The notes under the pieces: model-generated | The model's input: only the letters and a program-made list of their open reading frames with translations | Databases searched by the model: none | What the model was told of the DNA's origin: nothing | Translations under genes and position numbers: made by a program | Source of the DNA: Filomicrobium insigne | GTDB lineage: Bacteria > Pseudomonadota > Alphaproteobacteria > Rhizobiales > Hyphomicrobiaceae | Reading direction: 5' to 3' | NCBI RefSeq assembly: GCF_900104305.1 | Contig: NZ_FNJC01000004.1 | Location: 62,001 to 126,000, forward strand | DNA: 64,000 nucleotides | In this document: one piece after another, positions 1,137-38,345 of the stretch | How the letters are laid out: each line of letters begins with the position of its first letter | How positions within the stretch are numbered: position 1 is the first letter of the stretch

Positions 1137-1529
1137 TCAGGTTCTGCGCTTACTTCGCACCCTGCCCGGCCGGCTGTGGGATAGGGGAGCCGGACCGGGC
1201 AGGGGCGCCCCCGCTGCCGGGCACTCAAGGCGCGGTAGGGTTTCGTCGATCAGATGGGCGGCGCTCGATGCGAGCTGCCGCTGGCGCGGAGTCGCCTTGG
1301 CGGGAAGCAGCGCACGGACGGCGGCGTTGGCTTCGCACAAGGCGTCGCGGATCTGTGGGATCGCCTCGAGCACCGCGCGGTGCTCGTCGAGCGTGGTGCG
1401 CGCCATGGCAGCGGCGGAGAGCCAGCCGTAGCGCCAGAGAGTCGGTTGCTCAGGGTCGAACGGTTTGCCCGCCCAAAAGGCGTGCTGGCCGTTCATGCAG
1501 AGTTCGGCGTCGTCTGAATTATCGCTCAC
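1137..1529 (-). CDS. small protein with Rmf/CrpP-like motif
   Basis: The 130-residue product starts at a GTG at 1529 (V-S-D-N-S-D-D) whose ribosome binding site (GAGGAAAC) lies inside a dispersed repeat copy. Residues 10-36 (NGQHAFWAGKPFDPEQPTL, then WRYGW) resemble the G-x-x-A-x-x-x-G ... W-x-x-G-W pattern of the ribosome modulation factor/CrpP superfamily that is common in alphaproteobacterial phages. The remainder is helical with a basic tail. The family call is tentative. It is followed by the outer-membrane protein gene. Confidence 0.55.
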   Translation of the reverse strand: MSDNSDDAELCMNGQHAFWAGKPFDPEQPTLWRYGWLSAAAMARTTLDEHRAVLEAIPQIRDALCEANAAVRALLPAKATPRQRQLASSAAHLIDETLPRLECPAAGAPLPGPAPLSHSRPGRVRSKRRT

Positions 1530-1611
1530 GGCGCTGTTTCCTCGGCTGTCGCCTCGGGCGCCTGCGCGGGCGCGCCGCATTCGCGGCGGGTCGCGGTCGC
1601 TCCCGGACAGG
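1524..1611 (+). repeat. dispersed junction repeat, copy 1
   Basis: Shares the block CTCCCGGACAGG and GGTCGC(G/A)GTCGC with the other copies, and its left half matches the copy at 9586-9672 closely in inverted orientation (GCGCCGTGAGCGATAA at the edge). It overlaps the start of the leftward gene at 1529 and supplies its GTG and ribosome binding site. Confidence 0.8.
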
Positions 1612-1652
1612 CGGATGCCTCTGAGAAGGATCGCTGCAGTCGGCTAGAAGAG

Positions 1653-1740
1653 CCGGGGAGCAAGGCGACCCGGACGAAGTCCGCCCCCGCGGAGCTGCCC
1701 GAACGGCGCACGCCGTTCGGACCAGCAGCGTGAGCGAAAC
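1653..1740 (-). repeat. dispersed junction repeat, copy 2
   Basis: Contains GGGAGCAAGGCGACCCGG, CCGCCCCCGCGGAGCTGC and the edge AGCAGCGTGAGCGAAAC shared with the other copies. It has an internal perfect hairpin, CCGAACGGCG-CAC-GCCGTTCGG (about 1709-1731). It ends ten bases short of the stop codon of the leftward gene 1750-1980 and lies upstream of copy 1. Confidence 0.75.
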
Positions 1741-1749
1741 AACCGAGCC

Positions 1750-1980
1750 TCACCCGACCAGCTCAAGTTTGGGCTTGAGAAGCTTCTTGAGACCGCCGGG
1801 TTCGCGGGCGAGCGCTTCGATCTGCACCTCCTCGACTTCGTCGACGAGGGTGGGCGGCAGGCTGACGCCGCGCTTGGCGAGGATCGACAGCGCCGTGTGC
1901 GCCAGCGTTGCGAGTTCGACGTTGCTGGCTGTCGTTTCGAGGAATTTGGCCGGATCGGCCGGAATGCCGGTGATGTCCAT
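1750..1980 (-). CDS. hypothetical phage protein
   Basis: A 76-residue acidic, helical protein (MDITGIPADPAKFLETTASN...). The start at 1980 has AGGGG upstream and is the first gene after the operator-promoter at 2035-2063. It is therefore the probable promoter-proximal gene of the leftward early operon repressed by the S24 repressor. No known domain is recognised. Confidence 0.6.
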   Translation of the reverse strand: MDITGIPADPAKFLETTASNVELATLAHTALSILAKRGVSLPPTLVDEVEEVQIEALAREPGGLKKLLKPKLELVG

Positions 1981-2034
1981 GTGTGCCCCTGATGTTTGTC
2001 GGTCATGTCGTCGCAGTACCGAGTCGCACCATGA

Positions 2035-2063
2035 GTGGTACATATCGTACCCAACGGCGTCAA
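2035..2063 (-). promoter_or_regulatory. leftward early promoter with repressor operator
   Basis: On the minus strand TTGACG is followed by 6 bases and then the inverted repeat GGTAC-GATAT-GTACC (2037-2051). The arrangement copies the rightward promoter at 3359-3387 base for base in spacing. A 17-base spacer would put the -10 box at TACCAC, partly inside the operator. Extra half-sites (GTACC) occur at about 2072 and 2082. Confidence 0.65.
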
Positions 2064-2173
2064 TACAAAATGTACCCGCCTGTACCGGCGTGTGGAAAAG
2101 GTGGAATTCTGACGATTTGATTTTGGGGTTTGCCTAACCGCTGCAAACTGCGCATTTTCAGGGAGGCAGCGAT

Positions 2174-2605
2174 ATGTCTTGGATCGGAAAAATGTTTGGG
2201 CTGAATAGCGCGGCTCCGCCGAGGGTGAGCGCCACTCAACTTAAGCACGGAAGGGGCTGGACGACGGAAGTTGTCGGGGAGAGCAAATATCAGGACGCGC
2301 TCAGCCGATCCTATCGCCGCCACGGTGGGAGGGACCGACATCCCAAGGTCATGGCGGAGCTCGTTCCGGAACTAGACAATCCGTACGATGAGAACGCGGT
2401 GATGATTTTTATCGACGGTCAAAAGATAGGATATCTACGACGTGAAAAGGCTGCCGAATATCGCACTGTTCTGGGTGAAAAAACAGGTTCCTGCAGCGCA
2501 AAAATTGTCGGCGGGTTTGAGCGGGATGACGGTGGCCGTGCATTCTTCGGCGTCAAGCTCAACATGTCATGGCCGCCGAGCTTTGTAGCACAGGGGAAAG
2601 GCTGA
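2174..2605 (+). CDS. HIRAN-like domain protein
   Basis: The 143-residue product has a central stretch of the HIRAN type: VVGESKYQDAL, then ELVPELDNPYDENAV, then IDGQKIGYLRRE. HIRAN domains bind single-stranded DNA 3' ends and are usually found fused to helicases; here the domain stands alone. The start has a good ribosome binding site (GGGAGG, 7 bases upstream). It lies between the leftward operon promoter and the convergent repressor gene, a position where phages often carry accessory genes. Confidence 0.65.
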   Translation: MSWIGKMFGLNSAAPPRVSATQLKHGRGWTTEVVGESKYQDALSRSYRRHGGRDRHPKVMAELVPELDNPYDENAVMIFIDGQKIGYLRREKAAEYRTVLGEKTGSCSAKIVGGFERDDGGRAFFGVKLNMSWPPSFVAQGKG

Positions 2606-2610
2606 CGGAT

Positions 2611-3321
2611 CTAGAAATTTCGGACGTGACGCACGAGTCGCGCAAGGACTTTGCCAGGATTGTTCGGGCCTACGCGCTCTGTCGGATAGTCTTCATTCAA
2701 AGGGACGAGATCGAATATAAGTTCGCCCGCCTCGTCGCGCCCCCGCACCTGATATTTTCGGAATATTGGTTCGTCGAGTAGGTTTAACTTTGCCAGTACA
2801 AAATCACCGGGTTTGACGTCGCCATCGGGGTCGAAAACGACGGCGTCGCCTGGGTGGAAACTAACGCCACCGACAGGTGGTTTGGCAACCATGCTTTCCC
2901 CTTGAACAGGAAGCATAAAAACCCTCCTACCCAGTTCCGGGTGAGTGTTGATATCGGCATATGCTGTCGCTATGGCACCCATCGTACCGCTACGGTACGC
3001 GAGGTATCTTTCCACTGCAAGCCAGTCGAGGATTGGAATTCGACGTGTGGATATCTTCGTCTGTGAGACCCCGGAATCACTTGCCCAATAAGGGGGATTC
3101 TCGCCAGTGAGGAGCCATCCTGCCGTGACGCCGTATGCTTTCGCGTAGTCTTCGGCGTCCCGCTTTTTAAAGCCGCGCTTGCCGTTATCATGGCTTTTGT
3201 ACGTATTGTAATTCCATCCGAACTGCTCCACCGCCGCTCGAATAGTCTCAAAACCAGCGTGCTCGCGCGCCCGGCGCAAGCGCCGGCTCTGTGCCACGTT
3301 TTCTGTCTCTGTGTCGGTCAT
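2611..3321 (-). CDS. S24-family phage repressor (LexA/CI-like)
   Basis: The 236-residue product has an N-terminal DNA-binding region (residues about 8-70, RRLRRAREHAGFETIRAAVE onward) and a C-terminal S24 peptidase domain. The catalytic serine is S143 in QGESM and the lysine is K178 in DFVLAKL, as in LexA and CI repressors that self-cleave when RecA is activated. The start at 3321 is chosen because the next upstream in-frame methionines would extend far over the operator and the cro gene; a TATAAT lies 7-12 bases upstream, so its mRNA may be nearly leaderless. It is divergent from the Cro-like gene, as expected for an immunity switch. Confidence 0.88.
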   Translation of the reverse strand: MTDTETENVAQSRRLRRAREHAGFETIRAAVEQFGWNYNTYKSHDNGKRGFKKRDAEDYAKAYGVTAGWLLTGENPPYWASDSGVSQTKISTRRIPILDWLAVERYLAYRSGTMGAIATAYADINTHPELGRRVFMLPVQGESMVAKPPVGGVSFHPGDAVVFDPDGDVKPGDFVLAKLNLLDEPIFRKYQVRGRDEAGELIFDLVPLNEDYPTERVGPNNPGKVLARLVRHVRNF

Positions 3322-3358
3322 AGCGTCGATTATATCAGACGTCGCCGCATCCTGCCGC

Positions 3359-3387
3359 TTGACACGCTTCGGTACGTATTGTACCGA
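3359..3387 (+). promoter_or_regulatory. rightward early promoter with repressor operator
   Basis: TTGACA (3359-3364) is followed by 6 bases and the perfect inverted repeat GGTAC-GTATT-GTACC (3371-3385, CGGTACGTATTGTACCG including flanks). With a 17-base spacer the -10 is TACCGA, inside the operator, so repressor binding would block polymerase. The same element occurs at 2037-2051. Confidence 0.7.
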
Positions 3388-3393
3388 GATAGC

Positions 3394-3621
3394 ATGTTTA
3401 CATCCTTCCGAGACCTGATTGATGCGTGGCCGAACTTGCGAGAGTTCGGCAGTGACATCGGGGTTGGGGAGAACACTGCAAAGGGGATGCGCCGCCGCGA
3501 CAGCATTCATTCCGCGTATTGGGACGACGTCGTCACAGGCGCTCGCTGTCGGGATATCGATGGTGTTTCCCTCGAGCTGTTGTCTCAACTGGCGAAGGCG
3601 CGTGGACGCCGCGCAGCCTGA
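3394..3621 (+). CDS. Cro-like HTH regulator
   Basis: The 75-residue product (MFTSFRDLIDAWPNLREFGSD...) has a Cro/YdaS-like helix-turn-helix: FGSDIGVGENTAKGMRRRDSIH, broken here only for reading. It is the first gene downstream of the rightward operator-promoter and divergent from the repressor, the normal place for cro. The start follows the promoter by only a few bases, so the transcript is probably leaderless or has a very short leader. Confidence 0.7.
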   Translation: MFTSFRDLIDAWPNLREFGSDIGVGENTAKGMRRRDSIHSAYWDDVVTGARCRDIDGVSLELLSQLAKARGRRAA

Positions 3622-3847
3622 CAGCAGCGGTCTGAGCGCGTGAGTTTCAATTGCGTATCGGTTGAGTTGTCCCGCGTCCGGAACTTCAGGGGGCGATGGG
3701 TGGCTGCCCTAGCATACCAAGGGGAAATGACGTCCCACCGGACGAGGGTCTCTCGCAAGAGGGGATTCATGTCGGGCAATTTCCCCGAGCCACCCGCCTA
3801 CGTCATTGCGTTCGTTGCGTTCGCGTATCCCAAGCGGAGCCATTCAC

Positions 3848-3908
3848 TTGGGCGTTTCCTCCCTAAACTTTGGCCCGTTGGGTTTAGCAGCGGGCCCTTT
3901 TTAGGGCG
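3848..3908 (+). terminator. hairpin unit 1 (terminator-like, duplicated)
   Basis: Stem GGCCCGTTG (3872-3880) pairs with CAGCGGGCC (3888-3896) and is followed by a T tract. The 24 bases before the stem (GGGCGTTTCCTCCCTAAACTT) match unit 2, so the conserved segment is longer than a terminator alone. It may act as a terminator or as a leader element for processive antitermination. Confidence 0.55.
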
Positions 3909-3983
3909 GCGGACGGTCCGCGTGTTGGCCTCACTACGGGGTTGAACCGCTCAGGGGTCGCTAGCGTTAGGAGATTGCCCCCA

Positions 3984-4042
3984 ATGGGGCTTCCGTCCCT
4001 GAAACTAGGCCCGCTGGTGTAGTGGCGGGCCTTCTTTAGGGC
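3984..4042 (+). terminator. hairpin unit 2 (terminator-like, duplicated)
   Basis: Stem GGCCCGC (4008-4014) pairs with GCGGGCC (4025-4031), followed by TTCTTT. Preceded by GGGGCTTCCGTCCCTGAAACT, which aligns with the same part of unit 1; both are followed by TTTAGGGCG. Confidence 0.55.
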
Positions 4043-4210
4043 GCGTCGGTATCCCGAGGGGAGGCCTGCGAGGGTTTGCGCATGACGCGCAGCGGCCCCG
4101 CCCAGGTGATGGCTTGCTCTGGGCACAACAGCAGGCGGACCGGTCCCTCCTAGCGTACTGCGTCGCCGGTCCGAGTATCGCGTTTCTCGATTGAAACAGA
4201 CGGGGGTCTT

Positions 4211-4819
4211 ATGCTCGCGACGCCGAACCGACTCAAGCGCTGGGTGCGCCGGTTCTTAGCACCGGTTTCCGTCCTGTCGATTCCGGTGCCGATTAGGACG
4301 CTTCCGCCGCCGGTTGCGGACCGGTTCGCGCAACCGGTAAGCCCGGTGCGCACCGATCCTCGTCCACCGGTGAAACCGGCCGACAGCGACTCCGAGACGC
4401 CGCTCTATGCGCGGGCGGAAAGCTGGGAGGGCGAGCAGGGCTTGCGCTGGCTGCCACCGATAGAGCACGCCAAGCGACTCTTGATTTGGCTGCAGGAGCC
4501 GCGCGCGCAGACGCTCACGTTTGCCGAGGTTCACAACGCCTATTTCGAGTTCTGCATGGAGGAGTGGATTGCCCCGATCGGCTGGGTGGCCGTGGCGCGC
4601 CACTTCACCGGTATGACCGGCGGCAAACGCTACCGGTCGGCGGTCGATCCGCGCACCGGTCTGCGCGAAGCTCGCGAGCGGATTTATCGAATCCCGGCTT
4701 GTCGCGCTCACGCTGCTGATCCTCGCGATGCTCGGGCAGCTCCGCTAGGGCGGCCTACCGGCCGGGTCGCAGTCGCTCCCGAACAGGTGCCCCACGAGCC
4801 CATGCGGAGGGTGGCATGA
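4211..4819 (+). CDS. hypothetical early phage protein with repeat-encoded tail
   Basis: The 202-residue product has a basic, proline-rich N-terminal half and a more conserved-looking part (residues about 70-160, with LLIWLQEPRAQTLTFAEVH and WIAPIGWVAVARHF) that could be a small winged-helix-like fold. GGGGG lies upstream of the ATG. The last 40 or so residues are encoded by a copy of the dispersed repeat (4703-4789) and look like accidental coding. First gene of the rightward early operon after the hairpins; its end overlaps the next start by 4 bases. Confidence 0.6.
   Translation: MLATPNRLKRWVRRFLAPVSVLSIPVPIRTLPPPVADRFAQPVSPVRTDPRPPVKPADSDSETPLYARAESWEGEQGLRWLPPIEHAKRLLIWLQEPRAQTLTFAEVHNAYFEFCMEEWIAPIGWVAVARHFTGMTGGKRYRSAVDPRTGLREARERIYRIPACRAHAADPRDARAAPLGRPTGRVAVAPEQVPHEPMRRVA
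4703..4789 (+). repeat. dispersed junction repeat, copy 3
   Basis: GCGCTCACGCTGCTG at the left edge, GGGCAGCTCCGC in the middle and GGGTCGCAGTCGCTCCCGAA then CAGGTG at the right edge match the other copies with a few changes. It forms the 3' end of the 4211 gene. Confidence 0.75.
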
Positions 4820-5586
4820 AGGTAACCCCGATCCTGTTTTCAGGTCCGATGGTCTGTGCGCTCCTGCGCGAGATCGAGAAGCCCGGCACCGGAAAGACGC
4901 AGACGCGGAGGGTTCTGAAGGCGCGCAGAGACGTCAACTTTGGATGTGAACTGGCGCCATGCGAACTTGCCGGAGAAATTAATCAGGGCAACTTCGATAA
5001 TAGCCCATACGCACCCGGCGATCTGCTTTGGGTGAGGGAGACGTGGTGCGAGGGGCCCATCGGCCGCGACGGTGTCGTGGAAGATTGGCGGGACTTTTTT
5101 TACCGCGCGACGGACCACGACGTGATGGGGGTCGACGACGGCGACGGGTTTTCCGTGCTCAACGCCGACGGGTCTCTCAGGTCGCCTTGGCGTCCTTCAA
5201 TCCATATGCCTCGTCGCGCGTCCCGCCTGACGTTAGAAGTCACAGACGTTCGGGTCGAGCGCCTGCAGGACATCAGCGAAGAGGATGCACTCGCTGAGGG
5301 TGTGTTGAAGGTCAAAGATCACTGCTACGTGGTCCGAGGGTTTGGCTATGACGAGAGCGGGCTTTGCCACTCGCGGGCGACGATCCCGTTCGCTCAACTC
5401 TGGGACAGCCTCAACGAGGCGCGCGGCGCCGGTTGGGACGTGAATCCCTGGGTCGTTGCGGTGACGTTCAAAGTGCATCCCGTCAACATCGACGCCCTTC
5501 TCGAAAAACTCACGAAATACGCCCCTGTCCGGGAGCAAGGCGACCCGGCGCAAGCGCCGCCCGCGCGGAGCGACTGCGTCGCGTGA
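4816..5586 (+). CDS. ASCH/PUA-like phage protein
   Basis: The 256-residue product belongs to a common phage family with an ASCH-like fold: N-terminal ILFSGPMVCALLREI with GKTQTRRVLK, then YAPGDLLWVRETW, then RASRLTLEVTDVRVERLQDI, and C-terminal NPWVVAVTFKV. ASCH domains resemble PUA RNA-binding folds and some have nuclease or RNA-modifying activity; the role of this phage family is unknown. The last 20 residues (from PVREQGDPAQAPPARSDCVA) are encoded by repeat copy 4. It overlaps the preceding gene by 4 bases. Confidence 0.7.
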   Translation: MKVTPILFSGPMVCALLREIEKPGTGKTQTRRVLKARRDVNFGCELAPCELAGEINQGNFDNSPYAPGDLLWVRETWCEGPIGRDGVVEDWRDFFYRATDHDVMGVDDGDGFSVLNADGSLRSPWRPSIHMPRRASRLTLEVTDVRVERLQDISEEDALAEGVLKVKDHCYVVRGFGYDESGLCHSRATIPFAQLWDSLNEARGAGWDVNPWVVAVTFKVHPVNIDALLEKLTKYAPVREQGDPAQAPPARSDCVA

Positions 5587-5591
5587 GCGAA
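5524..5591 (-). repeat. dispersed junction repeat, copy 4
   Basis: CTGTCCGGGAGCAAGGCGAC and CCGCGCGGAGC, ending GCGTGAGCGAAATG, match the inverse complement of the other copies. It supplies the C-terminal codons and the TGA stop of the 4816 gene. Confidence 0.8.
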
Positions 5592-5597
5592 ATGAAA

Positions 5598-5630
5598 GAG
5601 CCCCTGAGGCGGCACCCTCAGAGGCTCGAT
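5598..5630 (+). terminator. hairpin between ASCH gene and initiator gene
   Basis: GAGCC-C-CTGAG pairs with CTCAG-A-GGCTC across a short loop. There is no T tract, so it may be a processing or attenuation structure rather than a terminator. The rest of the gap to 5818 holds nothing else obvious. Confidence 0.35.
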
Positions 5631-5817
5631 GGTGTGAGTAAGTCAGTGAGAACGGGGCCGGGATATCCGGTCGACCAGGGAGACTGAAGGACCGCCGGCG
5701 TGGAAGCCGTTCGCGCGGTGCGGGCGAACTCATGCCAGCAACCGCCCAACGGTCCCACTGTTCGATGACACGGTCAAGTGGCGCGCTGGGTGCGCGCTGT
5801 GGACGAAGGGGGATTTG

Positions 5818-6963
5818 ATGAGCGTTCACCGCGTTCCAGTTTGGACCTGGCGCGACGCCGTTCGCAAGGCGGCGATCCCGCCTTTGACGAAGCTCGTGTG
5901 CTGGGCGATTTCCAACTATCTCGCGGACGTCGGTGAGGGCTGCTTTCCGTCGATCGAAACGCTGGTCGCCGACACGGGGCTGTCCAAGCCGTCCGTGATC
6001 AAACACGTGCAGTCGGCCATCGCGCACGGGCTGCTGACCGCGACGCCGCGCCGTGGCCAGGATGGCCGCATTCAGCGCACCGTCTACCATCCGCAGTTCC
6101 CGGAATATGCCGTGTTGCCGAGCGGTCCCGCGTCGATTTTGGGTGCTAACGAGGTCAACGCCGTTAACCCGGATAAGCCGGGTCAAGGAGCTTTACCTGG
6201 ATCGCCTGAGGACACGTCCGCCCAGGTCAACGCCGTTAACCCGGACAGTCCAGGTCAAGGCGCTTTACCCGGTCCAGGTCAATCTCAGAGGCCTCACCAG
6301 GTAAACGACGTTTACCCTAACTATCCACTAGAACCTTCCACTTCCCCCCCGACCCCCCAAGGGGCCGAGAGAGAGGGGGACGATCGGACTTTGTTTTCGG
6401 ATCAGACGGCCGACCGATCGGCGGAACCGGATCCGCATCCCATCGACGGCTGGGCGGGCCGATGGACGGCCGCCGCGCAATCCGAAATCGGGCTGCTGTT
6501 CGACAACCCCATCGCCGCACACGTCGCGAGCGATTTCCTGGCGCGGCTCGTCGGCGTGCTGTGTCCACCGGCGCATGTCGATGCGGTGGCCTACGTGCGG
6601 CAGGTCAAGAACCGGCTGCAGCCGTTTGCGCCGGCCGTGCTGAGCGCCATCGCCGACAAGCTGATCGAAACCCAACACCGCGACCTGCCCGCTACGGCGA
6701 AGCTCGTCGAGCTCGCCACCGTCGAAGCGCGTCGGCAGGAGGCGTTCGCAGCACGGGACCAGGTCGTCGCGGCGGCGGCTGCGGCGCCTGTGCGTCACGT
6801 GATCCGCCGCGACACCGTGCAGTGGGCGCCCTGGATCGACGAACTGAACGCCCGCGGCCTCGCCGACGCCGCGCAACGGGCCCATGCCGCCGGCGCCATC
6901 GTCGTGACGGCGAAACTGCCTCGCGCTGGGGCCGAATTGATCGCAATCGGAACGGAGGGTTAA
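5818..6963 (+). CDS. phage replication initiator with embedded origin (HTH, lambda O-like role)
   Basis: The 381-residue product has an N-terminal winged helix (residues about 10-95; PPLTKLVCWAISNYLADV, then GCFPSIETLVADTGLSKPSV), of the HTH_36 type found in phage replication proteins. A low-complexity linker (residues about 110-165) carries the repeated peptide VNAVNPD/GQGALPG, which is what the DNA iterons encode. The C-terminal part is helical. The ATG at 5818 is preferred over the upstream TTG because AAGGGGG lies 7 bases ahead. The layout mirrors lambda O, whose gene contains the iterons of ori. Confidence 0.78.
   Translation: MSVHRVPVWTWRDAVRKAAIPPLTKLVCWAISNYLADVGEGCFPSIETLVADTGLSKPSVIKHVQSAIAHGLLTATPRRGQDGRIQRTVYHPQFPEYAVLPSGPASILGANEVNAVNPDKPGQGALPGSPEDTSAQVNAVNPDSPGQGALPGPGQSQRPHQVNDVYPNYPLEPSTSPPTPQGAEREGDDRTLFSDQTADRSAEPDPHPIDGWAGRWTAAAQSEIGLLFDNPIAAHVASDFLARLVGVLCPPAHVDAVAYVRQVKNRLQPFAPAVLSAIADKLIETQHRDLPATAKLVELATVEARRQEAFAARDQVVAAAAAAPVRHVIRRDTVQWAPWIDELNARGLADAAQRAHAAGAIVVTAKLPRAGAELIAIGTEG
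6153..6316 (+). repeat. palindromic iterons, likely phage replication origin
   Basis: Five 17-bp imperfect palindromes of the form GGTMAA-N5-TTWACC: 6153-6169 (GGTCAACGCCGTTAACC), 6181-6197 (GGTCAAGGAGCTTTACC), 6225-6241 (same as the first), 6253-6269 (GGTCAAGGCGCTTTACC) and 6300-6316 (GGTAAACGACGTTTACC, a perfect palindrome). Sites 1-2 and 3-4 are both 28 bases apart. They lie in the linker-coding part of the initiator gene. Confidence 0.75.
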
Positions 6964-6966
6964 GCC

Positions 6967-7152
6967 ATGGCTGAACGGAGCGGCACGTGCATCGACTGCG
7001 GGGAGCCGTTTCTCGCGCGCGGTGGGAAACGCAAGCGCTGCAACACGTGCGCCGACGAGCATGACCGCGTTCGTCAGCTCGCCCGCAAGAAGGCACAGCG
7101 CGAGGCCCGGGCCGCAGCCCGTGCGGCGGTGGCCCAGGAGGTGCGGTCGTGA
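6967..7152 (+). CDS. small zinc-ribbon protein
   Basis: The 61-residue product has two CxxC knuckles (CIDCGEPF and CNTCADEH) and a basic alanine/arginine-rich helix. Such mini zinc ribbons are frequent in phage early operons and may bind nucleic acid or a polymerase subunit; the target is unknown. GGAGGG lies 8 bases upstream. It overlaps the next gene by 4 bases. Confidence 0.65.
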   Translation: MAERSGTCIDCGEPFLARGGKRKRCNTCADEHDRVRQLARKKAQREARAAARAAVAQEVRS

Positions 7153-7493
7153 CCGATACGCATCGTCCGCCGATCCGAGTGAAGGCAATTATCGCCTCGG
7201 TATCTTCCGAGTTCGGCGTGACGCCGCAGGAGATTGTCGGGCCGCGACAGAACCGCAACTTGATCGCAGCGCGCTGCGCCGTCGCATGTCTCGCCCGTCG
7301 CGCTGGGCGATCGTTGCCGCAGATCGGGCGGGTCCTCAACCGGCATCACGCGACGATCCTAAATGCCGAGCGGCGCGCGGCACAGCGGATGACTGTCGAT
7401 CCCGAGTTTCGCCGCTGCGTCGAGACCATCGATCGCCGGCTGGGCTGCCGCCCGATTTTCGCATCCGAGACACAGGAGGACGCCCACCCATGA
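7149..7493 (+). CDS. stand-alone DnaA domain IV (DNA-binding) protein
   Basis: The 114-residue product resembles only the C-terminal DNA-binding domain of DnaA: VSSEFGVTPQEIVGPRQNRN, then AARCAVACLARR, then the helix-turn-helix SLPQIGRVLNRHHATILNAE. In DnaA the corresponding segments are the basic loop and the signature ending RDHTTV. There is no AAA+ ATPase domain. It starts at GTG 7149 with AGGAGG upstream, in the same operon as the initiator, so a role in origin recognition or in competing with host DnaA is plausible. Confidence 0.8.
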   Translation: MTDTHRPPIRVKAIIASVSSEFGVTPQEIVGPRQNRNLIAARCAVACLARRAGRSLPQIGRVLNRHHATILNAERRAAQRMTVDPEFRRCVETIDRRLGCRPIFASETQEDAHP

Positions 7494-7792
7494 GCACGTA
7501 TGCCCAAGCCCTCACCGCACTCTGGCAGCGCACACGCCTGATGAGCGCCGCGCTCGACGACGTCGACAAGGCCATCGGCCGGTTCGCGGAAGTCTCTGGT
7601 GGACCGTCGGCGCCGTATCCCGAACCGTGGCCGACTGGTGGACCGGCGCATGATCCGATCAACGAAGCGCCAGAGCCCCCGCCAACGCCGCCGCCGGTTC
7701 CGCCGCAGCCGCAGAGCGAAGAGGAGTTTTCGCTGACGCGGGCGATTGAAGCCGTGCGCCGAAAGCGGGATGCGCGGGAGCGGGTGGGATGA
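7490..7792 (+). CDS. hypothetical phage protein, proline-rich
   Basis: The 100-residue product has a short helical N-terminus (MSTYAQALTALWQRTRLMSA), a proline-rich linker (EAPEPPPTPPPVPPQPQ) and a charged C-terminal helix. AGGAGG lies upstream of the ATG and it overlaps the preceding gene by 4 bases. No function can be assigned. Confidence 0.6.
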   Translation: MSTYAQALTALWQRTRLMSAALDDVDKAIGRFAEVSGGPSAPYPEPWPTGGPAHDPINEAPEPPPTPPPVPPQPQSEEEFSLTRAIEAVRRKRDARERVG

Positions 7793-7795
7793 GTT

Positions 7796-7885
7796 GTTTC
7801 GCTCACGCTGCTGTTGGCTCGGCTGCGCCTCGCCGCAGCTCCGCGGGGGCGGCCTCACGGCCGGGTCGCCTTGCTCCCGGACAGG
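7796..7885 (+). repeat. dispersed junction repeat, copy 5
   Basis: TTTCGCTCACGCTGCTG at the left, CGCAGCTCCGCGGGGGCGG in the middle and GGGTCGCCTTGCTCCCGGAC at the right. It lies between two genes and can be read in frame from the ATG at 7789 into the methyltransferase gene. Confidence 0.85.
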
Positions 7886-7887
7886 TG

Positions 7888-8499
7888 ATGTCCGCAAGCG
7901 GCTCGAGCTTTATTTCTCCGGATCTGTTCGAGGGCGGGCCAACATCTTGGCCGTTCGGCGACCTGGTTCCGCAGGCCTACGATCTCGTGATGATCGATGT
8001 TGCTTGGCGGTTTAAGAACTATTCCCAGTTGGGAGAAAGCAAAGGGCCGGAGCCGCATTACCGCACGATGTCGGACGCGGAGATTCTGGCGTTGCCCGTG
8101 GCGGACCTGGCGCGAGAAAACTGCGCGCTGTGGATGTGGGCGACGTCGCCCCGCCTCGATTTTGCAATCCGCGTGCTCGACGTGTGGGGCTTCGAGTTCG
8201 TGACGGCGGGGGCCTGGAACAAGCGGCGCTGGGGGACCGGCTACGTGCTGCGCTCAGTGTGCGAACCGTTTCTGATCGCCAAGCGCGGCAATCCGAAGAT
8301 CGATGGCCGTTCGGTGCCGAACCTCATTGAGGAGTCCCGGCGCGAGCACTCGCGCAAACCGGAACGCGCCTATGAGCTTGCCGAAAAGATGATGCCGACG
8401 GCGCGCCGTGCCGATGTCTATTCCCGCACCGACCGGCCGGGCTGGGAGGCCTTTGGCGATGAAGCCGGAAAATTCAACGAGGGAGATGACGGGCTATGA
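7888..8499 (+). CDS. MT-A70-family adenine methyltransferase, altered catalytic motif
   Basis: The 203-residue product matches the MT-A70 fold (N6-adenine methyltransferases): [48 protein letters not shown] and [14 protein letters not shown]. The usual catalytic DPPW is D37-V-A-W40 here, so activity is uncertain. An alternative start at 7789, overlapping the previous stop, would add 33 residues coded by the repeat; I prefer 7888. Phage MT-A70 enzymes often protect DNA from host restriction or mark it for other functions. Overlaps the next gene by 4 bases. Confidence 0.78.
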
Positions 8500-8939
8500 C
8501 CGCATTGCAGGCCTCCAGCCAGGCGCAGCTGCGCCAGTTCATCGAGCAGATCGAGCGGCTCGAGGAAGAAAAGAAGGCGATCGCCGGCGACATCAAAGAC
8601 AAGTTCATGGAAGCCAAGGCGGTGGGCTTCGATGTGAAAGCCATGCGCAAGGTGATCGCGCTGCGCAAGAAATCGAAGGCCGAGCGCGACGAGGAAGACG
8701 CGATCGTAACCGTCTACCTGCACGCCATGGGCATGGCTGGAACGCCGCTTGACGATTGGGCGAACGAGCAGGAGACGCCGGCCGCCGCCGACACGGAAAG
8801 CACCATCAGCATCAACGGCGGACCGGCGGTTCCGATGTCCGTGGTCAAGGAGGCGCTCACCGTCGTGAAAGCCGAGAAACGCGCCAAGGGCCGCCTGCGC
8901 GGCCAGCGTGTCGATTTGCCGGAGGGTGCCGAGGGATGA
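8496..8939 (+). CDS. DUF2312 / GapR-like DNA-binding protein
   Basis: Residues about 8-75 ([20 protein letters not shown] ... [18 protein letters not shown]) are a clear match to the DUF2312/GapR family, in which coiled-coil dimers clamp over-twisted DNA in front of forks and RNA polymerases. The C-terminal 70 residues are an unrelated linker. Phage copies are common in alphaproteobacteria and sit, as here, in early operons. Start overlaps the methyltransferase stop (ATGA). Confidence 0.85.
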
Positions 8940-9667
8940 GCCTTCCAACGGGGACAGCAGAGCAGGAGATTCGGACAGCAGCGGAACAGCTCGCACGGCG
9001 GTATTGGCCGTCGGCGCGCATCGTTCATGAACTCAACGTGGAGAACGGGATTAGCCGTGCCGACATTGCTGTGATTACGGCCGATCGGTTGATCCTCATG
9101 GAGCTGAAATCTGAGCGTGACACGCTCGATCGACTCCCAAACCAAATCGAACAATTCACCAAGGTGGCGCATCACGTGATCGTCGTTGCCCATCGCAAGT
9201 GGTGCGACTCTGCAGGATGGCAAACGAACAACGAGGGGCAGCCATTCCTTCCGCAAGCCCCAATATTCAGGCCGTCTGCTGGTGCGACGGTGTGGGAGTA
9301 TTCGGAGGGGAAGTGTAAGGGCAATGCGCCACATGCGGGGTGCTCGTGGCCATGGACTGCCCGCATGCTCAATCTGCTGTGGAACTCTGAATTGCAGCGG
9401 GTTTGTTATGTGCTCCGGGTGGCGACGACAAAGCGCCCAACTCGCGGGGCGATGATTGACGATCTCATGCGACTGTGCCGCGCGCCGGAACTTGAACAAG
9501 CGGTTCTGGCGCAGCTTCGGACCCGCCAGTTCGCAACAGATGACGCAATCCAAAAGCGGAAGGACGACGCGGCAGAGGCAACCACCTGTCCGGGAGCAAA
9601 GCGACCCGGCGCGAGCGCCGCGCCCGCGCAGGCGCACGAGGCGACAGCCGAGGAGACAGCGCCGTGA
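8936..9667 (+). CDS. putative PD-(D/E)XK nuclease-like protein
   Basis: The 243-residue product has the nuclease core pattern [20 protein letters not shown] with the acidic residue in ADIAV and the E-L-K motif about 12 residues later, then a helix [20 protein letters not shown]. This resembles MmcB/sce7726-type DNA-repair or phage nucleases. The last 28 residues ([20 protein letters not shown] onward) come from repeat copy 6. It overlaps the DUF2312 gene by 4 bases. Metal binding and substrate are inferred. Confidence 0.65.
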
Positions 9668-9672
9668 GCGAT
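9586..9672 (-). repeat. dispersed junction repeat, copy 6
   Basis: CTGTCCGGGAGCAAAGCGAC, CGCGCCCGCGCAGGCGC and CGAGGAGACAGCGCCGTGAG match copy 1 in inverse orientation. It encodes the C-terminus and stop of the 8936 gene and supplies the ribosome binding site and GTG start of the 9664 gene. Confidence 0.85.
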
Positions 9673-10707
9673 AACTGGTACTCCCCGGCTGACGGACTGC
9701 CGCCGCTCGGTGTGCGCGTCGAGGTGTTGTGGCGCGGGCGGACATTCAAGGCTGCGCGCATCGCCCGGAAGGGCGGACGCGGTCACGTCTGGATGACGAC
9801 GACGGAATGGGTCGCGTGGACGGACTGGGTCGACGGTGCGCCCCGGCGGAAACACGACCGGCGTTCGAGCCCGTTGCCGGTGATGCTGCCCGATGACGGC
9901 CTGCCCGGCGTGCCGCGCCATGGCGACGACGCGCTGGGTCCGGACCCGGACGCCTGGCGTCCGGAGAATCCTGCGACCTGGAAAATGCCGCTTCCCGAAC
10001 CGATCCACGGCATTCAAGCCGGGCGCATGTGGTCGAGCAGGACCCGATTCGCCGCAGTGGAGGAGGCGGAGTCCGCCGAGCTGGCCCGCGAGATGGAAGC
10101 CGACCGGGAAACCGCGCGGGCGCAAGGCGCGCGGCACGGAGCAGATGGGGAAACCCGGACGCGCTGGTGGCTCGACCCGACCCGCGTGACCTATTCGCCG
10201 CCCGGACTGGTTTCCATTGCGGAAGCGGAAGCCCGGGTGTCGCGGGCGATCCTGACGGATGGGCTGACGGGGTTCCGTCATTGGCAGCAAGATGTGCGGA
10301 CGTCGCGCGCGCTCGCCGACATAACGGCGGACGGGTTGGGCGATGACGATGACATCGCCGATCGCGTGGCGCGCTTCGATCCGTTGCCGCAGGACATCGA
10401 GGATTACCTGACCGCCATGGGATGGTTCGCGCAACTGTGCGTGGCCAACCGCAGCTACGGCTACGTGTTCGGTGACTTCACCACCGCGCAGCTCGCTTTG
10501 GTGTGGCGGGCGCGGGGGCGAAGCTGGCGGTCGATCGCGGGCGATTTGTGTGTGAGCGATGACACGACGCATCGGAACTTTGCCGAAGGCCTGGTGCGCG
10601 TGCATCGCGCCGCCAACGGCCGGCCGGCGGCGGGAACGGTTTCGGTGCATGCGGAACGGGCCGCGCTGGCAGATCGAGACAGGCAAATCGGAAGGAGGGC
10701 GGCTTGA
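9664..10707 (+). CDS. phage protein with DUF551-like N-terminus and C-terminal HTH (DUF6362-like)
   Basis: The 347-residue product begins with a DUF551-like motif (DNWYSPADGLPPLGVRVEVL) and ends with a helix-turn-helix (TAQLALVWRARGRSWRSIAG, then DLCVSDDTTHRNFAEGLVRV) like the DUF6362 family of phage sigma-like or late-gene regulators. It stands late in the early operon, where an antiterminator or late activator would be expected. The start is GTG at 9664, provided by the repeat, with GAGGAGAC 5-6 bases upstream. The regulatory role is inferred from position. Confidence 0.65.
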   Translation: MSDNWYSPADGLPPLGVRVEVLWRGRTFKAARIARKGGRGHVWMTTTEWVAWTDWVDGAPRRKHDRRSSPLPVMLPDDGLPGVPRHGDDALGPDPDAWRPENPATWKMPLPEPIHGIQAGRMWSSRTRFAAVEEAESAELAREMEADRETARAQGARHGADGETRTRWWLDPTRVTYSPPGLVSIAEAEARVSRAILTDGLTGFRHWQQDVRTSRALADITADGLGDDDDIADRVARFDPLPQDIEDYLTAMGWFAQLCVANRSYGYVFGDFTTAQLALVWRARGRSWRSIAGDLCVSDDTTHRNFAEGLVRVHRAANGRPAAGTVSVHAERAALADRDRQIGRRAA

Positions 10708-11315
10708 CAACGGCACAGGAGCTTGCGGCGCATTACGGGCTGGCGACGGCGGACACGCTGCCGCCGCGCCCGAAGTATGAAACCTCACCGGCGCTGGGTC
10801 GGCTGGAGCTGACATCCAGACAGCGTGCGATTTTCGACGAGATGCGCCCCGTGGCGCTGTGCGTGGTGGCGTCAGCAGGTCCGGTCTCCGCTCAGCTGCA
10901 GGACCCGCTGTCGGGACGCATCACGCGGCGCTTTGGCGGCAATCGCGGGTGCTGGCCGTTGCGGCTGGCGCGAACGACGTCGCCGTCCGACACCGTCACC
11001 AGCAACTGGAACAAGGACCCGTTCTCGGAATTTGGCGTCGTCGTCAGGCTGTGGCTGCGCACAGGTGAGCACTACAAGCGCCTCGCCGTGCAGGTGCAAG
11101 GGCTTGTCGAACACCTCTCGGACGAGGCGATGGGCGAGCCGCTGCTCAACGGCTGGCTCGACATGGGGCCGGACCTGCATCTGCCAACACTTGAGGGCGA
11201 AATCCTGAGCCGGGCCGAACGGCTCCGCTTTTCCGCGCGCACCGACCGCGAGCTGGTGGCGTGGCTGGAGCAGATCCGACGCGAGGAAGATTTGTTGGAA
11301 GGGGTTGGGGGATGA
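10704..11315 (+). CDS. hypothetical phage protein
   Basis: The 203-residue product starts at TTG 10704 with a strong GGAGGG 5-6 bases upstream and a 4-base overlap with the preceding gene. It contains no motif I recognise; the centre (FSEFGVVVRLWLRTGEHYKR) looks like alternating beta strands. Coding bias is typical of the early operon. Confidence 0.6.
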   Translation: MTTAQELAAHYGLATADTLPPRPKYETSPALGRLELTSRQRAIFDEMRPVALCVVASAGPVSAQLQDPLSGRITRRFGGNRGCWPLRLARTTSPSDTVTSNWNKDPFSEFGVVVRLWLRTGEHYKRLAVQVQGLVEHLSDEAMGEPLLNGWLDMGPDLHLPTLEGEILSRAERLRFSARTDRELVAWLEQIRREEDLLEGVGG

Positions 11316-11506
11316 GCTTGATCAGGGTTCTACTGGCCGGAATTGGGTTGATGGGCATTGCGAAGGTCTGGGAGAATCTCGGGGATAGCTCCGCCGTCGC
11401 GTGGCAACAATTCGCCTTTCTCTGGGGCTATGGCGCCGTGACGTGGGCGCTGGGTGGCCTCGTTGAACGGGTCGGACGTCTCGAGCAAAAGAAGCGAAAG
11501 CCATGA
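11312..11506 (+). CDS. small membrane protein
   Basis: The 64-residue product has two hydrophobic stretches (RVLLAGIGLMGIAKV and FAFLWGYGAVTWALGGLV) and a basic tail (QKKRKP). It overlaps both neighbours by 4 bases, so it is translated together with them. The function is unknown; small membrane proteins at the end of early operons are sometimes exclusion factors. Confidence 0.55.
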   Translation: MSLIRVLLAGIGLMGIAKVWENLGDSSAVAWQQFAFLWGYGAVTWALGGLVERVGRLEQKKRKP

Positions 11507-11946
11507 CGGGATTTGTCATCCTTGCGGCCTGCCTTGCTCTTGCGAACGCCGCAATCGGCCAGATCGACGAGGCCTGCGTGATCTGGCTTGCGGTGATAAT
11601 TCTGTCGATGTCGACCGGTGCACGCAGTGAACTGTGGGGCGGGTTTTTGAAGGGTTACTATGGTGCCCGTAAATCTCCTGTCCGGGAGCGTCGTGTCGAA
11701 GACGTCCACTCACGCGCGTCCGATGCGGACGGCATTCGGGCCATGCGGCTGCGGTTGCGGCGCCTTGGCCGCGACGACGGCGCCTTTTCGGACAGCGATG
11801 TGCTCGGCCTGATCAAGGCCGTCGACGCGTTTTTGGCGCATGGGGAGCTGTGCCGCGTGGCGCTGGGGGATGGCCGCCAGATCGAGATCACCTGGCGCAC
11901 GCAGATCGTAACGACGGATCACAAGGCAAGAGGGAATGGGCGATGA
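11503..11946 (+). CDS. hypothetical membrane-anchored phage protein
   Basis: The 147-residue product has two hydrophobic N-terminal segments (FVILAACLALANAAIG, ACVIWLAVIILSM) and a soluble C-terminal part rich in D/R with LGLIKAVDAFLAHGELCRVA. A remnant of the dispersed repeat (11675-11690) lies inside it at the switch from membrane to soluble part, so the gene may have formed by recombination at the repeat. A tiny 13-codon frame (11943-11984) follows and is probably not a gene. Confidence 0.5.
   Translation: MTGFVILAACLALANAAIGQIDEACVIWLAVIILSMSTGARSELWGGFLKGYYGARKSPVRERRVEDVHSRASDADGIRAMRLRLRRLGRDDGAFSDSDVLGLIKAVDAFLAHGELCRVALGDGRQIEITWRTQIVTTDHKARGNGR
11675..11690 (-). repeat. dispersed junction repeat, short remnant (copy 7)
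   Basis: CTCCTGTCCGGGAGCG matches the conserved edge of the other copies only. Confidence 0.5.
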
Positions 11947-12032
11947 GCGAGGCGTGTCACACGCTGAGTGCCGAGGAGGACTGACGAGGTCTAGAAGGTT
12001 CCGGCGAGGTGCGATTGTCTAATTTTGGCCGT

Positions 12033-24585: not shown

Positions 24586-24598
24586 TGGGGAACCCAAA

Positions 24599-28433: not shown

Positions 28434-28436
28434 CCG

Positions 28437-28832: not shown

Positions 28833-28853
28833 CGCCGAATAAAGGAGGCCATC

Positions 28854-29252: not shown

Positions 29253-29254
29253 GC

Positions 29255-29680: not shown

Positions 29681-29877
29681 AGCCCGCTGAGTTCTGGGCT
29701 CTGCATCCCCGCGAGTTCTGGTGGTTGTTTGAGGCCCACACGCCGCCCCCGACCTTCGGAAAGAAGCACAAGACCACAGCCGACGAGTTCGATTCCATCA
29801 TTCAGGATCTGAGAGCCCATGGCCAAAAGCGCAGAAGTCGGCGCGCTCCGCGTGCGCCTGACGATGGATGCCGGTGA
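29255..29877 (+). CDS. tail assembly chaperone GT (-1 frameshift product)
   Basis: At 29593-29599 the bases GGGAAAT are read G-GGA-AAT in the G frame; a -1 slip re-pairs both tRNAs (GGG-AAA), exactly as at the lambda G/GT site (GGGAAAG). The -1 frame then runs to TGA 29875-29877 and encodes a T domain with AEFWALHPREFWWLFEAHTP, the motif of the small chaperone found after G in related phages and gene transfer agents. That domain has no start codon of its own. It overlaps the tape measure start. Confidence 0.75.
29593..29599 (+). promoter_or_regulatory. -1 programmed frameshift site GGGAAAT
   Basis: The heptamer is in the correct phase (G GGA AAT) with stop codons placed so that only a shift after 29592 can connect the frames (a TGA in the -1 frame lies at 29590-29592). 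A strongly GC-rich stretch follows and could form a stimulatory structure. Confidence 0.75.
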
Positions 29878-35204: not shown

Positions 35205-35215
35205 GGACGTAACTC

Positions 35216-35926: not shown

Positions 35927-36564
35927 TGGTGCTCCCGTTTTCGCCAAGTCTGCTTGGAGTCATTGGGAAAAAAAAGATATTCAGCCGCGAATACATTACC
36001 AGCGCTAGCTACAATTCTGGCGGCGCGGCGCATACGTTTAATGGCGTAAACATCGGATCTCCAGCATCTGACCGTCTCGTGGCGGTGTGCGCCATTTATG
36101 CCTGGAACCAGAACACAAATTTCACGACAATCTCTATTGGTGGTGTGGACGGAGACATTGTTGGTCAGAATGATGGCTCCAATGTTGGTATGGCGATAGC
36201 CTATCGGCGCGTGACGGGATCAATTACGACCGCGGACATAGTTGTGAATTACTCCGGAACTCCGGCGCGCTCCGAGATTCACGTGTTTCGCATTAGTGGT
36301 CAGACGAGTGATGTACCGTATGACTTTCACTTCCCGGCCGGCGGCGGCGCGTCGAATCGATCGGCCACACTGGATCTTCCTGCCAAGGGTGGTCTTATCG
36401 CGGCGGCTTATGATGCTGGTAGCGGATCGTGGACAAACGCAACTGAGGACGCTCAGCTTTCTGAAAGTTCGTGTGCCTCGTCCGTGTCGGACACCCTTCA
36501 GTCTGGTCTGACCGTTACCTGTAGCGGCAATGTGCGGGCTATTGGCGCTGTATCTTGGGCTTAG
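35926..36564 (+). CDS. virion surface beta-sandwich protein
   Basis: The 212-residue product (MVLPFSPSLLGVIGKKKIFS...) is beta-rich with AHTFNGVNIGSPASDRLVAV, ITTADIVVNYSGTPARSEIH and a cysteine-containing C-terminus. It looks like a small adhesin or fibre tip of phages. The ATG at 35926 overlaps the previous stop; an upstream GTG at 35911 is less likely. Confidence 0.62.
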   Translation: MVLPFSPSLLGVIGKKKIFSREYITSASYNSGGAAHTFNGVNIGSPASDRLVAVCAIYAWNQNTNFTTISIGGVDGDIVGQNDGSNVGMAIAYRRVTGSITTADIVVNYSGTPARSEIHVFRISGQTSDVPYDFHFPAGGGASNRSATLDLPAKGGLIAAAYDAGSGSWTNATEDAQLSESSCASSVSDTLQSGLTVTCSGNVRAIGAVSWA

Positions 36565-36629
36565 ACGGTGCACTCCAACCTTCCGCCGTGGTAAGTTAAG
36601 AGATGGCTTAATTCCCTTGGGGGGCGGCG

Positions 36630-37373
36630 ATGATCGTGAGTCACTCTCATAGATACATCTTCATGCACTGCCGAAAGACCGCAGGAACCTCGGTTACGGT
36701 CGCGCTGGCTAAGCACCTAGGCCCCAGAGACATCCAAATCGGAGCTTGGCGAGAGGCAAGGGCAGCAGGAGTACCGTTTAACAGGCGTTTTTGGCTCGAT
36801 CTCGCAACCCCTCGCAGTGCTGCCCGCATCATGAAAACTATTGTGAAATACCAACGGCTGGAGATTAAAGATCTCAGCATAATTCACAAAGCACGGCACG
36901 CGGCGAGATTTGGTCGAGATGCGCCACACGCTAGTGCGGAGATCGTCAAGGCGCAGTTTCCCGCCGAGTGGGACAAGTATCTCAAATTTTGCTTTGTGCG
37001 AAACCCCTATGCGCAGGCGGTATCTTCTTGGAAGTTCCACACGCTCCGGTCTGGCAACCAGTACTCATTCACTCGATATCTAGAGATGGCTGAACTTGGG
37101 GATGATGAAGATCTCTTGCCCGACGCCGTAACCAATTGGCCGATATATACGATCGACGACAAGATCGCAGTTGATTTCGTCGGTCGGTATGAGACGCTGG
37201 ATCGAGACATGACGACGATCATGGATCGCTTGGGGTTGGTAAAAGAGCAAATGCCGGTCACGAAGAAGTTTGCGGCGACCTCCGACTATCGAGACTTTTA
37301 CACGGAAGACGACCGCAAGCGCGCATTCAGATTGTTTGAGAAGGAAATCGAAACCTTCGGATATACCTTCTAA
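36630..37373 (+). CDS. sulfotransferase family protein (prophage cargo)
   Basis: The 247-residue product has the PAPS 5'-phosphosulfate loop RKTAGTSVTVALAKHL (residues 15-30) and the 3'-phosphate motif FVRNPYAQAVSSWKF near residue 115, typical of Sulfotransfer_2 enzymes that sulfate carbohydrates. GGGGGGCGGCG precedes the ATG. It stands between the tail adhesins and the lysis genes with its own gaps on both sides, so it is likely a moron that modifies a surface glycan. Confidence 0.75.
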   Translation: MIVSHSHRYIFMHCRKTAGTSVTVALAKHLGPRDIQIGAWREARAAGVPFNRRFWLDLATPRSAARIMKTIVKYQRLEIKDLSIIHKARHAARFGRDAPHASAEIVKAQFPAEWDKYLKFCFVRNPYAQAVSSWKFHTLRSGNQYSFTRYLEMAELGDDEDLLPDAVTNWPIYTIDDKIAVDFVGRYETLDRDMTTIMDRLGLVKEQMPVTKKFAATSDYRDFYTEDDRKRAFRLFEKEIETFGYTF

Positions 37374-37437
37374 GCACAAGCCTAAACGGCCGTCTCGCGA
37401 TAGATGGGCGGCCGGTTCACACTGGGCAGTTTAGTGT

Positions 37438-37668
37438 CTAGTCGCGACTCTCAGTCGATCGCCAATACCGCCACGCGCAAACCGACATCGCAAGCGCTGT
37501 AGTTACGCCTGAGGCAACGCCAACCGCTGCAACCAAGGCGAGATCCGTTACCGTCATTGGCAATCCGGCAGCAACAAACATAATACCTCCGACAAGCACC
37601 ATCGACGCCACCGCAATAATTGCGCCGGCGATGATTGCAAAAATTGGGTCTAGCTCGTCCTGAAGCAT
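37438..37668 (-). CDS. small two-pass membrane protein
   Basis: The 76-residue product has two long hydrophobic helices (IFAIIAGAIIAVASMVLVGG and LALVAAVGVASGVTTALAMS). GGGAGGTGAGG lies just upstream of the ATG at 37668. It is opposite to the lysis genes; an anti-holin or exclusion role is possible but unproved. Confidence 0.55.
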   Translation of the reverse strand: MLQDELDPIFAIIAGAIIAVASMVLVGGIMFVAAGLPMTVTDLALVAAVGVASGVTTALAMSVCAWRYWRSTESRD

Positions 37669-37789
37669 GACCTCACCTCCCTTTTCTAGAAGCTAATTAC
37701 TAGCCGAGTGCGCAATCAATCACGCGCAGCGAATATTCCGTGCAAGGGCGATTACGCCAGCGTTATTCCACACAATTCGGAGACTTATC

Positions 37790-38260
37790 ATGCTGACAGC
37801 GCTGATTTCGGCGTTGACCGGACTCGTGTCCGGCATCGTACCGGACGTCCTCAAAGAGGTCCGCGACTCCCGCGACCACGTGCGGGAAATGGATTTGATC
37901 CGCCTGCAGCACGACCTGCAGATGGCGCGCCTTCAGGCGGAAGCCGGGTCGAAACTCGAGGCGGCCGAGACCGGTATCGTCGCGGAGGAAATCCGTGCGT
38001 TCCGCGAAAGCCTGACGGCCATCGTCGAGAGCCAGGGGCGGCCGACCGGCATCGCGTGGATTGACGGCCTTAACGCGGTGCTCCGCCCTCTGACGGCTGG
38101 CGTCTTGATCGTGCTTCTTGTGTTCGTGGCGCTGGGCTTTTCCAGCGTGATCGACCACGCCGCGTTCTCCGCCCTGTTCATTGAAGCTGTGCAGGCGGTG
38201 TTGGGCTTCTTGTTCGGCTACCGCTCGTCGCGGAAGTGTCCGACGCCGGCGGCGCGCTAA
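37790..38260 (+). CDS. holin-family protein
   Basis: The 156-residue product has an amphipathic N-terminus, a charged central coiled coil (LIRLQHDLQMARLQAEAGSK) and two C-terminal transmembrane helices (PLTAGVLIVLLVFVALGFSS, FIEAVQAVLGFLFGYR) with a basic tail, like the holin_3TM proteins of alphaproteobacterial phages and gene transfer agents. It lies just upstream of the endolysin. Confidence 0.7.
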   Translation: MLTALISALTGLVSGIVPDVLKEVRDSRDHVREMDLIRLQHDLQMARLQAEAGSKLEAAETGIVAEEIRAFRESLTAIVESQGRPTGIAWIDGLNAVLRPLTAGVLIVLLVFVALGFSSVIDHAAFSALFIEAVQAVLGFLFGYRSSRKCPTPAAR

Positions 38261-38268
38261 AGCGCACG

Positions 38269-38345
38269 CGCTGCTATTCGCGCTGTCGCGCGGCAGCTCC
38301 GCGGGGGCGGACTTCGTCCGGGTCGCAGTCGCTCCCGGACAGGAG
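38269..38345 (+). repeat. dispersed junction repeat, copy 8
   Basis: GGCAGCTCCGCGGGGGCGGA, CTTCGTCCGGGTCGC and GTCGCTCCCGGACAGGAG match the other copies. It fills the gap between holin and endolysin genes. Confidence 0.85.

Follow-up and report, generated by a model that had tools for sequence, protein, structure and literature searches.

Rhizobium intergenic mosaic elements (RIME) are mosaic palindromic intergenic repeats in Rhizobiales, and the boundary sequences of lambdoid phages are short repeated DNA at phage gene junctions. The Rickettsia palindromic elements (RPE) of R. conorii have been assigned by their end to a CGTC class, and this class is said to lack a dedicated transposase (PMC3733652). 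Here we analysed a stretch of 64,000 nucleotides from Filomicrobium insigne (contig NZ_FNJC01000004.1, positions 62,001 to 126,000; "the window"), in which a prophage carries seven copies of a 70–94 bp repeat, and a 13-bp possible relic, at its gene junctions. The reading we prefer, with a probability of roughly 0.68, is that the repeat is a non-autonomous mobile element built of several hairpins, which hitches on phages, inserted behind 3' ends and was picked up in a host like G008, a draft genome of the same genus (about 160 contigs).

To orient the copies, the left motif TTTCGCTCACG and the right edge GCTCCCGGACAGG were used, plus meaning that TTTCGCTCACG lies on the left and CTCCCGGACAGG on the right. 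The copies are as follows (positions are those of the window; ORF, open reading frame).

1518–1611, plus: c1, antisense; its left end carries the GTG start of a small gene (1137–1529, minus)
1653–1741, minus: c2, sense; 8-bp gap after the end of gene 1750–1980 (minus)
4700–4787, plus: c3, sense; in-frame residues 164–192 of ORF 4211–4819
5524–5593, minus: c4, antisense to gene 4816–5586; first hairpin short
7794–7885, plus: c5, sense; 1-bp gap after the stop of ORF 7022–7792
9585–9675, minus: c6, antisense; at the junction of genes 8936–9667 and 9664–10707
11677–11689, minus: possible relic; exact 13-bp right edge only, within the possible ORF 11503–11946
38258–38343, plus: c8, sense; the modelled range takes in the TAA (38258–38260) of a holin-like gene and runs toward the endolysin gene

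The original prediction had counted seven copies and a remnant. The seven copies held up, and the remnant is uncertain as a degraded copy, being matched by its edge alone. The edge said to be shared is present in most copies, but it reads GAACAGG in c3 and is missing in c2 (CTCCCCGG), where the GGACAGG end is absent and the last hairpin (CGGCT..AGCCG) is retained, as judged by eye. In the whole genome of 3,847,194 bases the exact edge GCTCCCGGACAGG occurs at six sites, all within the window (c1, c4, c5, c6, c8 and 11677–11689), and the reversed control at none; with up to two mismatches we found ten sites in the window, compared with 2.45 expected and a maximum of seven in 100 shuffles. A covariance model of the seven copies, with which 150 of 1636 first-look candidates in the genome were scored, found at E ≤ 1 only the seven themselves. 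One-mismatch forms of the right module GTCGCNTTGCTCCC occur at six sites beyond the prophage, which is the level of the reversed control (seven in the genome). By exact edge and by covariance model, then, the earlier statement that the host region is free of copies can be extended to the rest of the 3.85-Mb genome.

Six of the seven copies have a gene end within 10 bp, with 1.35 expected under random placement (P 0.0002), and one (c3, near the end of its ORF) lies wholly inside a gene, against 4.90 expected (P 0.004); these P values are approximate, as the test used 55 self-called genes, three of them set by hand. The claim that copies lie at gene ends and not inside genes was thus correct for six copies, but not for c3, whose ORF has no family match. 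Neither a random scatter inside genes nor a comparable abundance elsewhere in the host chromosome was found.

By its sequence the prophage repeat is a member of a family dispersed in the chromosomes of relatives from the bacterial family that contains Hyphomicrobium. At E ≤ 0.001, covariance-model relatives were detected in 17 of 59 genomes, the own genome included, with 1–19 matches in each. Among named genomes the exact core pattern was found in 42 stretches. By title, 24 of these come from alphaproteobacteria, Hyphomicrobium accounting for 12, and the other 18 do not. Left and right motifs were both present in 17 of the 24 alphaproteobacterial stretches versus one of the 18 others (L074), and a single end motif in a further six and a further three, respectively; since so few of the non-alphaproteobacterial core matches carry end motifs, most of them look like chance. 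The stretch L074, which has the core and both end motifs, comes from a metagenome-assembled genome titled Gammaproteobacteria and may reflect mis-binning or transfer. In three genomes of the family that we call f1 (G105, G107 and G109) the match places are identical to those in the Hyphomicrobium-labelled genomes of L053, L056 and L061, which places this family.

The chromosomal copies define the layout of the element, which is TTTTCGCTCACG, hairpin 1 (HP1), CTCC GNNN GGGCG, hairpin 2 (HP2), GGGTCGC..TTGCTCCC and a last hairpin. A second left module (type B, ..CACAAGCTGCGAGAAGCTTCGGA..) is joined to the same right half in G029, a complete chromosome. We examined the hairpin arms in 57 elements, which remained from 73 candidates after 15 could not be parsed, c8 was re-added and identical copies were collapsed; the omission of odd copies biases this set toward well-formed arms. 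The HP1 arms were fully paired in 49 of 57 elements, compared with a mean of 7.3 after arms had been swapped between copies, and the HP2 arms in 52 of 57, compared with 14.5. The perfectly paired arms were of 13 types in HP1 and 11 in HP2, and four HP2 types occur among the seven phage copies. The miss recorded for HP1 of c8 goes back, by eye, to a slice shifted by one base in register. Local duplication within the phage is disfavoured, because the copies differ in their paired arms. In an RNAalifold alignment of 40 sequences (seven from the window and, of 37 from relatives, the 33 within the length limits), 11 pairs were kept and four of these changed on both sides, one as a C-G/G-C exchange in the small hairpin with the GNNN loop; HP1 was not recovered. 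We also saw a second palindrome (CCAACACT..GTGTTGG) nested in or adjoining the hairpins of some copies in L116 and L124 (both G008) and in L139 (G001).

Inspected by eye, chromosomal copies come after the 3' end of a tRNA, a stop codon or a run of T, and some stand in tandem arrays in which the next copy begins after the T-run of the previous one. Six of 27 relatives' loci have a tRNA gene at a distance of about 30 bp or less. At two tRNA copies (L121 and L131) the tRNA 3' end is repeated behind the element, so that repeats of 10 to 22 bp flank it, as after site-specific integration (again by eye). In G029 we collected exact right modules and merged copies at most 400 bp apart, which gave 44 clusters. 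None was inside a called gene, and 22 began no more than 30 bp behind a 3' end of the same sense, compared with 6.2% of 3,575 random intergenic points; the upstream neighbour was of the same sense for 33 of 44 clusters, compared with 46% of random intergenic points. The other half of the clusters fails the 30-bp rule under the simple gene caller used, for which at least one strand error is likely (near 510,044).

The GGACAGG-ended branch is rare. Of 103 genomes of the family, two have the pattern GTCGC-N(2-5)-GCTCCCGGACAGG: this genome, with five occurrences, all of them in the prophage, and G008, likewise with five. The copies in G008 have host-type neighbours, namely MraY and Mur ligase, CcmB and a cytochrome c assembly protein, HlyD-type and DUF533 proteins, a helix-turn-helix protein and a lytic transglycolase-domain protein, and tRNA-Lys and an EamA transporter. 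In G008 the element begins immediately past the stop of mraY, and all seven other genomes with a close ortholog lack it, which gives an empty site for a chromosomal copy; in this comparison, which took one genome per species, two of the ten genomes searched (G003 and G007) yielded distant matches only, and G004 has a different repeat at this place.

The phage genes next to the copies were compared with their homologues. The genes concerned are, in addition to those named above, the following.

4816–5586, plus: phage gene (phrog_874), extended by c4
7789–8499, plus: MT-A70 methyltransferase ORF, extended or preceded by c5
37790–38260, plus: holin-like gene (phrog_6637, weak holin match), ahead of c8
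38393–38968, plus: endolysin gene (phrog_7, E 4.2e-47), after c8

Copy c4 encodes residues 237–256 and the TGA of gene 4816–5586. Among 79 homologues, taken from the best 80 of 237 loci, the median last collinear residue was 228, and 68 of the 79 finished at or before residue 236. Copy c6 encodes the last 27 residues and the TGA of gene 8936–9667, together with the GTG start of gene 9664–10707; the matches of eight phage records to 8936–9667 end at residue 205 or earlier, and the ends of homologues scatter around the start of the element. Here 132 bp separate the holin-like gene from the endolysin gene. In Vibrio phage PS25B.1 and in L334 and L335, which are prophage relatives from the bacterial family, the two genes overlap or almost abut, and the junction in these three is an empty site for c8.

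Copy c5 is open in frame with the methyltransferase, close to its N-terminus, as had been predicted, and an alternative ATG (7888) stands immediately past the element. The ORF in front of it, 7022–7792, has no family match and no homologue in our set "phages" except the prophage itself, and the ATGA at its stop doubles as the first codon of the methyltransferase ORF. When 7789–8499 was compared with phage records, the 15 listed of 331 aligned only from query residues 51–63 onward. The methylase of Rhizobium phage RHph_TM3_3_3 begins at a point corresponding to residue 47 and shares 4 bp with the preceding gene. The extension is absent there, so either c5 adds about 31 in-frame residues or the start is now at 7888.

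Stops and starts supplied by the repeat were likewise part of the original prediction, and they hold for the antisense copies. From the complement of the left end, CGTGAGCGA, come the TGA codons that close the genes at 5586 and 9667 and two GTG starts, at 9664 and, on the minus strand, at 1529. In c6 and c1, which are antisense, the next gene has its GTG inside the element, together with GAGGAG or GAGGAA. Two of the window copies are read through as protein in the sense orientation. The suggestion of a small palindromic element tolerated at coding ends is supported by the compensating arm changes, the position at gene ends, the empty sites and the tails encoded by the element.

Three further viral contigs match the core, two of them (L091 and L092, from IMG/VR) being fragments of phages unrelated to this one. 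In L092 (5.0 kb) one copy stands directly after the stop of the tail sheath gene and one after that of the tail tube gene; in L091 (6.0 kb, with tape-measure and tail-chaperone genes) one copy directly follows the TAG of a small gene, and all three are in the sense orientation. L093 has the core only, at the end of the stretch examined, and the left and right motifs are not present there. The first two fragments show that phages carry the repeat and are silent on module exchange.

Taken together, the position of the copies, the paired-arm changes, the tails that reach beyond homologues, the empty sites, the distribution of the family and its carriage by other phages point to insertions of a non-autonomous multi-hairpin repeat whose TTTTCGCTCACG end faces the gene. 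An element of this family would land immediately behind transcribed genes, at a stop codon, a tRNA 3' end or a T-run, and phages of this bacterial group would acquire copies from the chromosomes. The prophage most likely gained its copies in another host with the GGACAGG-ended branch and then carried them here. Mobility would act on single-stranded hairpins of DNA or RNA, with an enzyme supplied in trans. In a tight phage operon, an insertion behind a stop would fall between adjacent coding ends or into them. Several frames of the G+C-rich element are open, and a TGA and a GTG lie in the complement of its left end, so that antisense or read-through copies can become tails, stops and starts while the gene survives.

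Several observations weigh against this reading. No junction without a copy was seen in a close relative of the phage, and the direction and time of insertion rest on distant homologues. A miniature inverted-repeat transposable element (MITE) would have terminal inverted repeats and a target-site duplication shared with an autonomous transposon; the two ends of the present element are not inverted repeats, and the evidence of flanking duplication covers, by eye, the two tRNA copies. The transposase domain Y1_Tnp is absent from G029, G001 and G008. The window copies stand four in sense and three in antisense to the neighbouring genes. When arms were swapped among the phage copies alone, the result was not decisive (HP1 paired in 6/7, swap maximum 6; HP2 in 7/7, swap maximum 7). 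The proposed check by consensus and RNA folding came out divided: compensating arm pairs are found across the family, but only c2 of the seven copies folds better than its shuffles (z −3.0), the other six giving z values from −1.29 to +1.26.

It is unlikely, in our estimate, that the repeat is instead a cis-acting RNA of the 3' untranslated region (a terminator, 3'-end protector or attenuator) kept under selection, with the phage copies tuning operon expression. The paired-arm changes and the sense position close behind genes and tRNAs would fit such an RNA, as would the sense copies after stops in L091 and L092 and the Ts that, by eye, often follow the last hairpin of chromosomal copies. However, six of the seven window copies end in GGACAGG or GAACAGG without the last hairpin, and in c2 the hairpin, by eye, has no T-run. 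The three antisense copies and the two sense copies read as protein are also difficult to reconcile with it, and the presence of the element behind mraY differs between species. A known RNA family was rejected, as no Rfam match reached the threshold over any scanned copy. In window positions 1400–11800, which hold six full copies (c8 was not included), nothing matched over the copies at E ≤ 1, and in 12 relatives' loci the sole overlap with a copy was sX4 in L026 (E 0.071; 26.9 bits, with a gathering score of 70).

Much less probable is a phage boundary sequence of the lambdoid type, in which shared homology would serve as a recombination linker for the exchange of modules. The position at gene junctions, also in the two other phage fragments, would suit this idea, and the likeness of c1 and c6 (89.5% over 105 alignment columns) extends slightly beyond the element. 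On the other hand, the copies differ in their arms, and the same family is dispersed behind tRNAs and host genes in related chromosomes, and this part of the original prediction is not supported. About as improbable is a family of repetitive extragenic palindromic (REP) sequences or bacterial interspersed mosaic elements (BIME) moved by a REP-associated tyrosine transposase (RAYT): it would suit extragenic hairpins behind genes, the tail-to-tail pair c1 and c2 (41 bp apart) and the GGAG tetranucleotides seen by eye beside hairpins on the antisense strand of many copies (a GTAG or GGAG tag would be expected at the foot of the palindrome), but Y1_Tnp (PF01797) was found in two of 12 genomes and in none of G000, G001, G008 and G029, which largely refutes it for the copy-rich genomes, and three Y1_Tnp loci (1.8–3.2 kb) hold none of the repeat modules.

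One property of the chromosomal family is unexplained by mobile insertion as set out above. The exact right modules in G029 number 48 plus and 4 minus, and the merged clusters are divided 40 to 3 by strand (P 3e-9), with 21:2 and 19:1 in the two halves defined by GC skew. As both halves agree, a replication-strand bias is disfavoured as the cause in G029. That minus copies were missed by the pattern search was also rejected: 20 motif-blind 20-kb stretches of G029 contained no right module on either strand, and six loose matches to left or middle modules (4 plus, 2 minus). G001 has 19 minus and 3 plus modules (P 0.0009), and in some draft genomes the copies are on both strands. When 20 stretches of 20 kb were sampled at even spacing from G001 (L293–L312), 18 had a positive GC skew, and the usual switch between two halves was absent.

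A wider proposal, tentative and with the odds against it, is that the family represents an undescribed class of mobile multi-hairpin elements which targets exact 3' ends of genes, tRNAs and terminators, restores its own landing site, with arrays extending past the latest T-run as a result, enters some chromosomes in one strand orientation over both replichores and is carried between hosts by phages. If this were true, the one-strand rule would speak for entry by a route that has a polarity of the whole chromosome, such as single-strand transfer, and not for replication. In the complete chromosome, a sharp position rule (close behind 3' ends) goes together with one-strand orientation. In one prophage, a chromosomal hairpin repeat found on phages of the same group becomes tails, stops and starts without destroying the operon, and phages are candidate vehicles for such repeat families.

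The prophage itself has genes for a repressor, replication initiator, MT-A70 methyltransferase, GapR-like protein, terminase, portal, major head protein, tape measure, tail fibre, endolysin and integrase. The viral contig IMGVR_UViG_2617270918 (53.1 kb) corresponds to this very prophage: the 33.4 kb of it that were retrieved and lie within the window are identical. Our searches found no close relative, and in viral_contigs gene 9664–10707 had no relatives except the prophage itself. Near the repressor, two matches to suhB/mmgR-like small RNAs were seen on the plus strand (3832–3911 and 3972–4046), the first exceeding the Rfam gathering score. An 87-bp direct repeat of 97.7% identity (39398–39484 and 41724–41810) is located upstream of the integrase gene. 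Two 49-bp direct repeats (6152–6200 and 6224–6272; 88% alike, 72 bp apart) lie within the replication initiator gene and are possibly iterons.

No description of this repeat family was found in the literature searched, a result that applies to that scope. The family resembles REP, RPE and RIME in kind, and membership in any of them is not established. The likeness to RIME, going by their general description, is of kind only. The prophage copies differ from lambdoid boundary sequences by belonging to a family dispersed in related bacterial chromosomes. Dispersed extragenic hairpins, sometimes in inverted pairs, are shared with REP and BIME (PMC3733652), whereas the present family forms a longer chain of hairpins and has no RAYT in the copy-rich genomes tested. 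Like the repeat described here, RPE are small alphaproteobacterial palindromic repeats read in frame in unrelated proteins (PMC10969869, PMC3733652). As described there, RPE are in-frame insertions in genes; none of the 44 clusters in G029 and one of the seven prophage copies, near the end of its ORF, is inside a gene, and by this description the present family, located at gene ends and mostly outside genes, is set apart from them.

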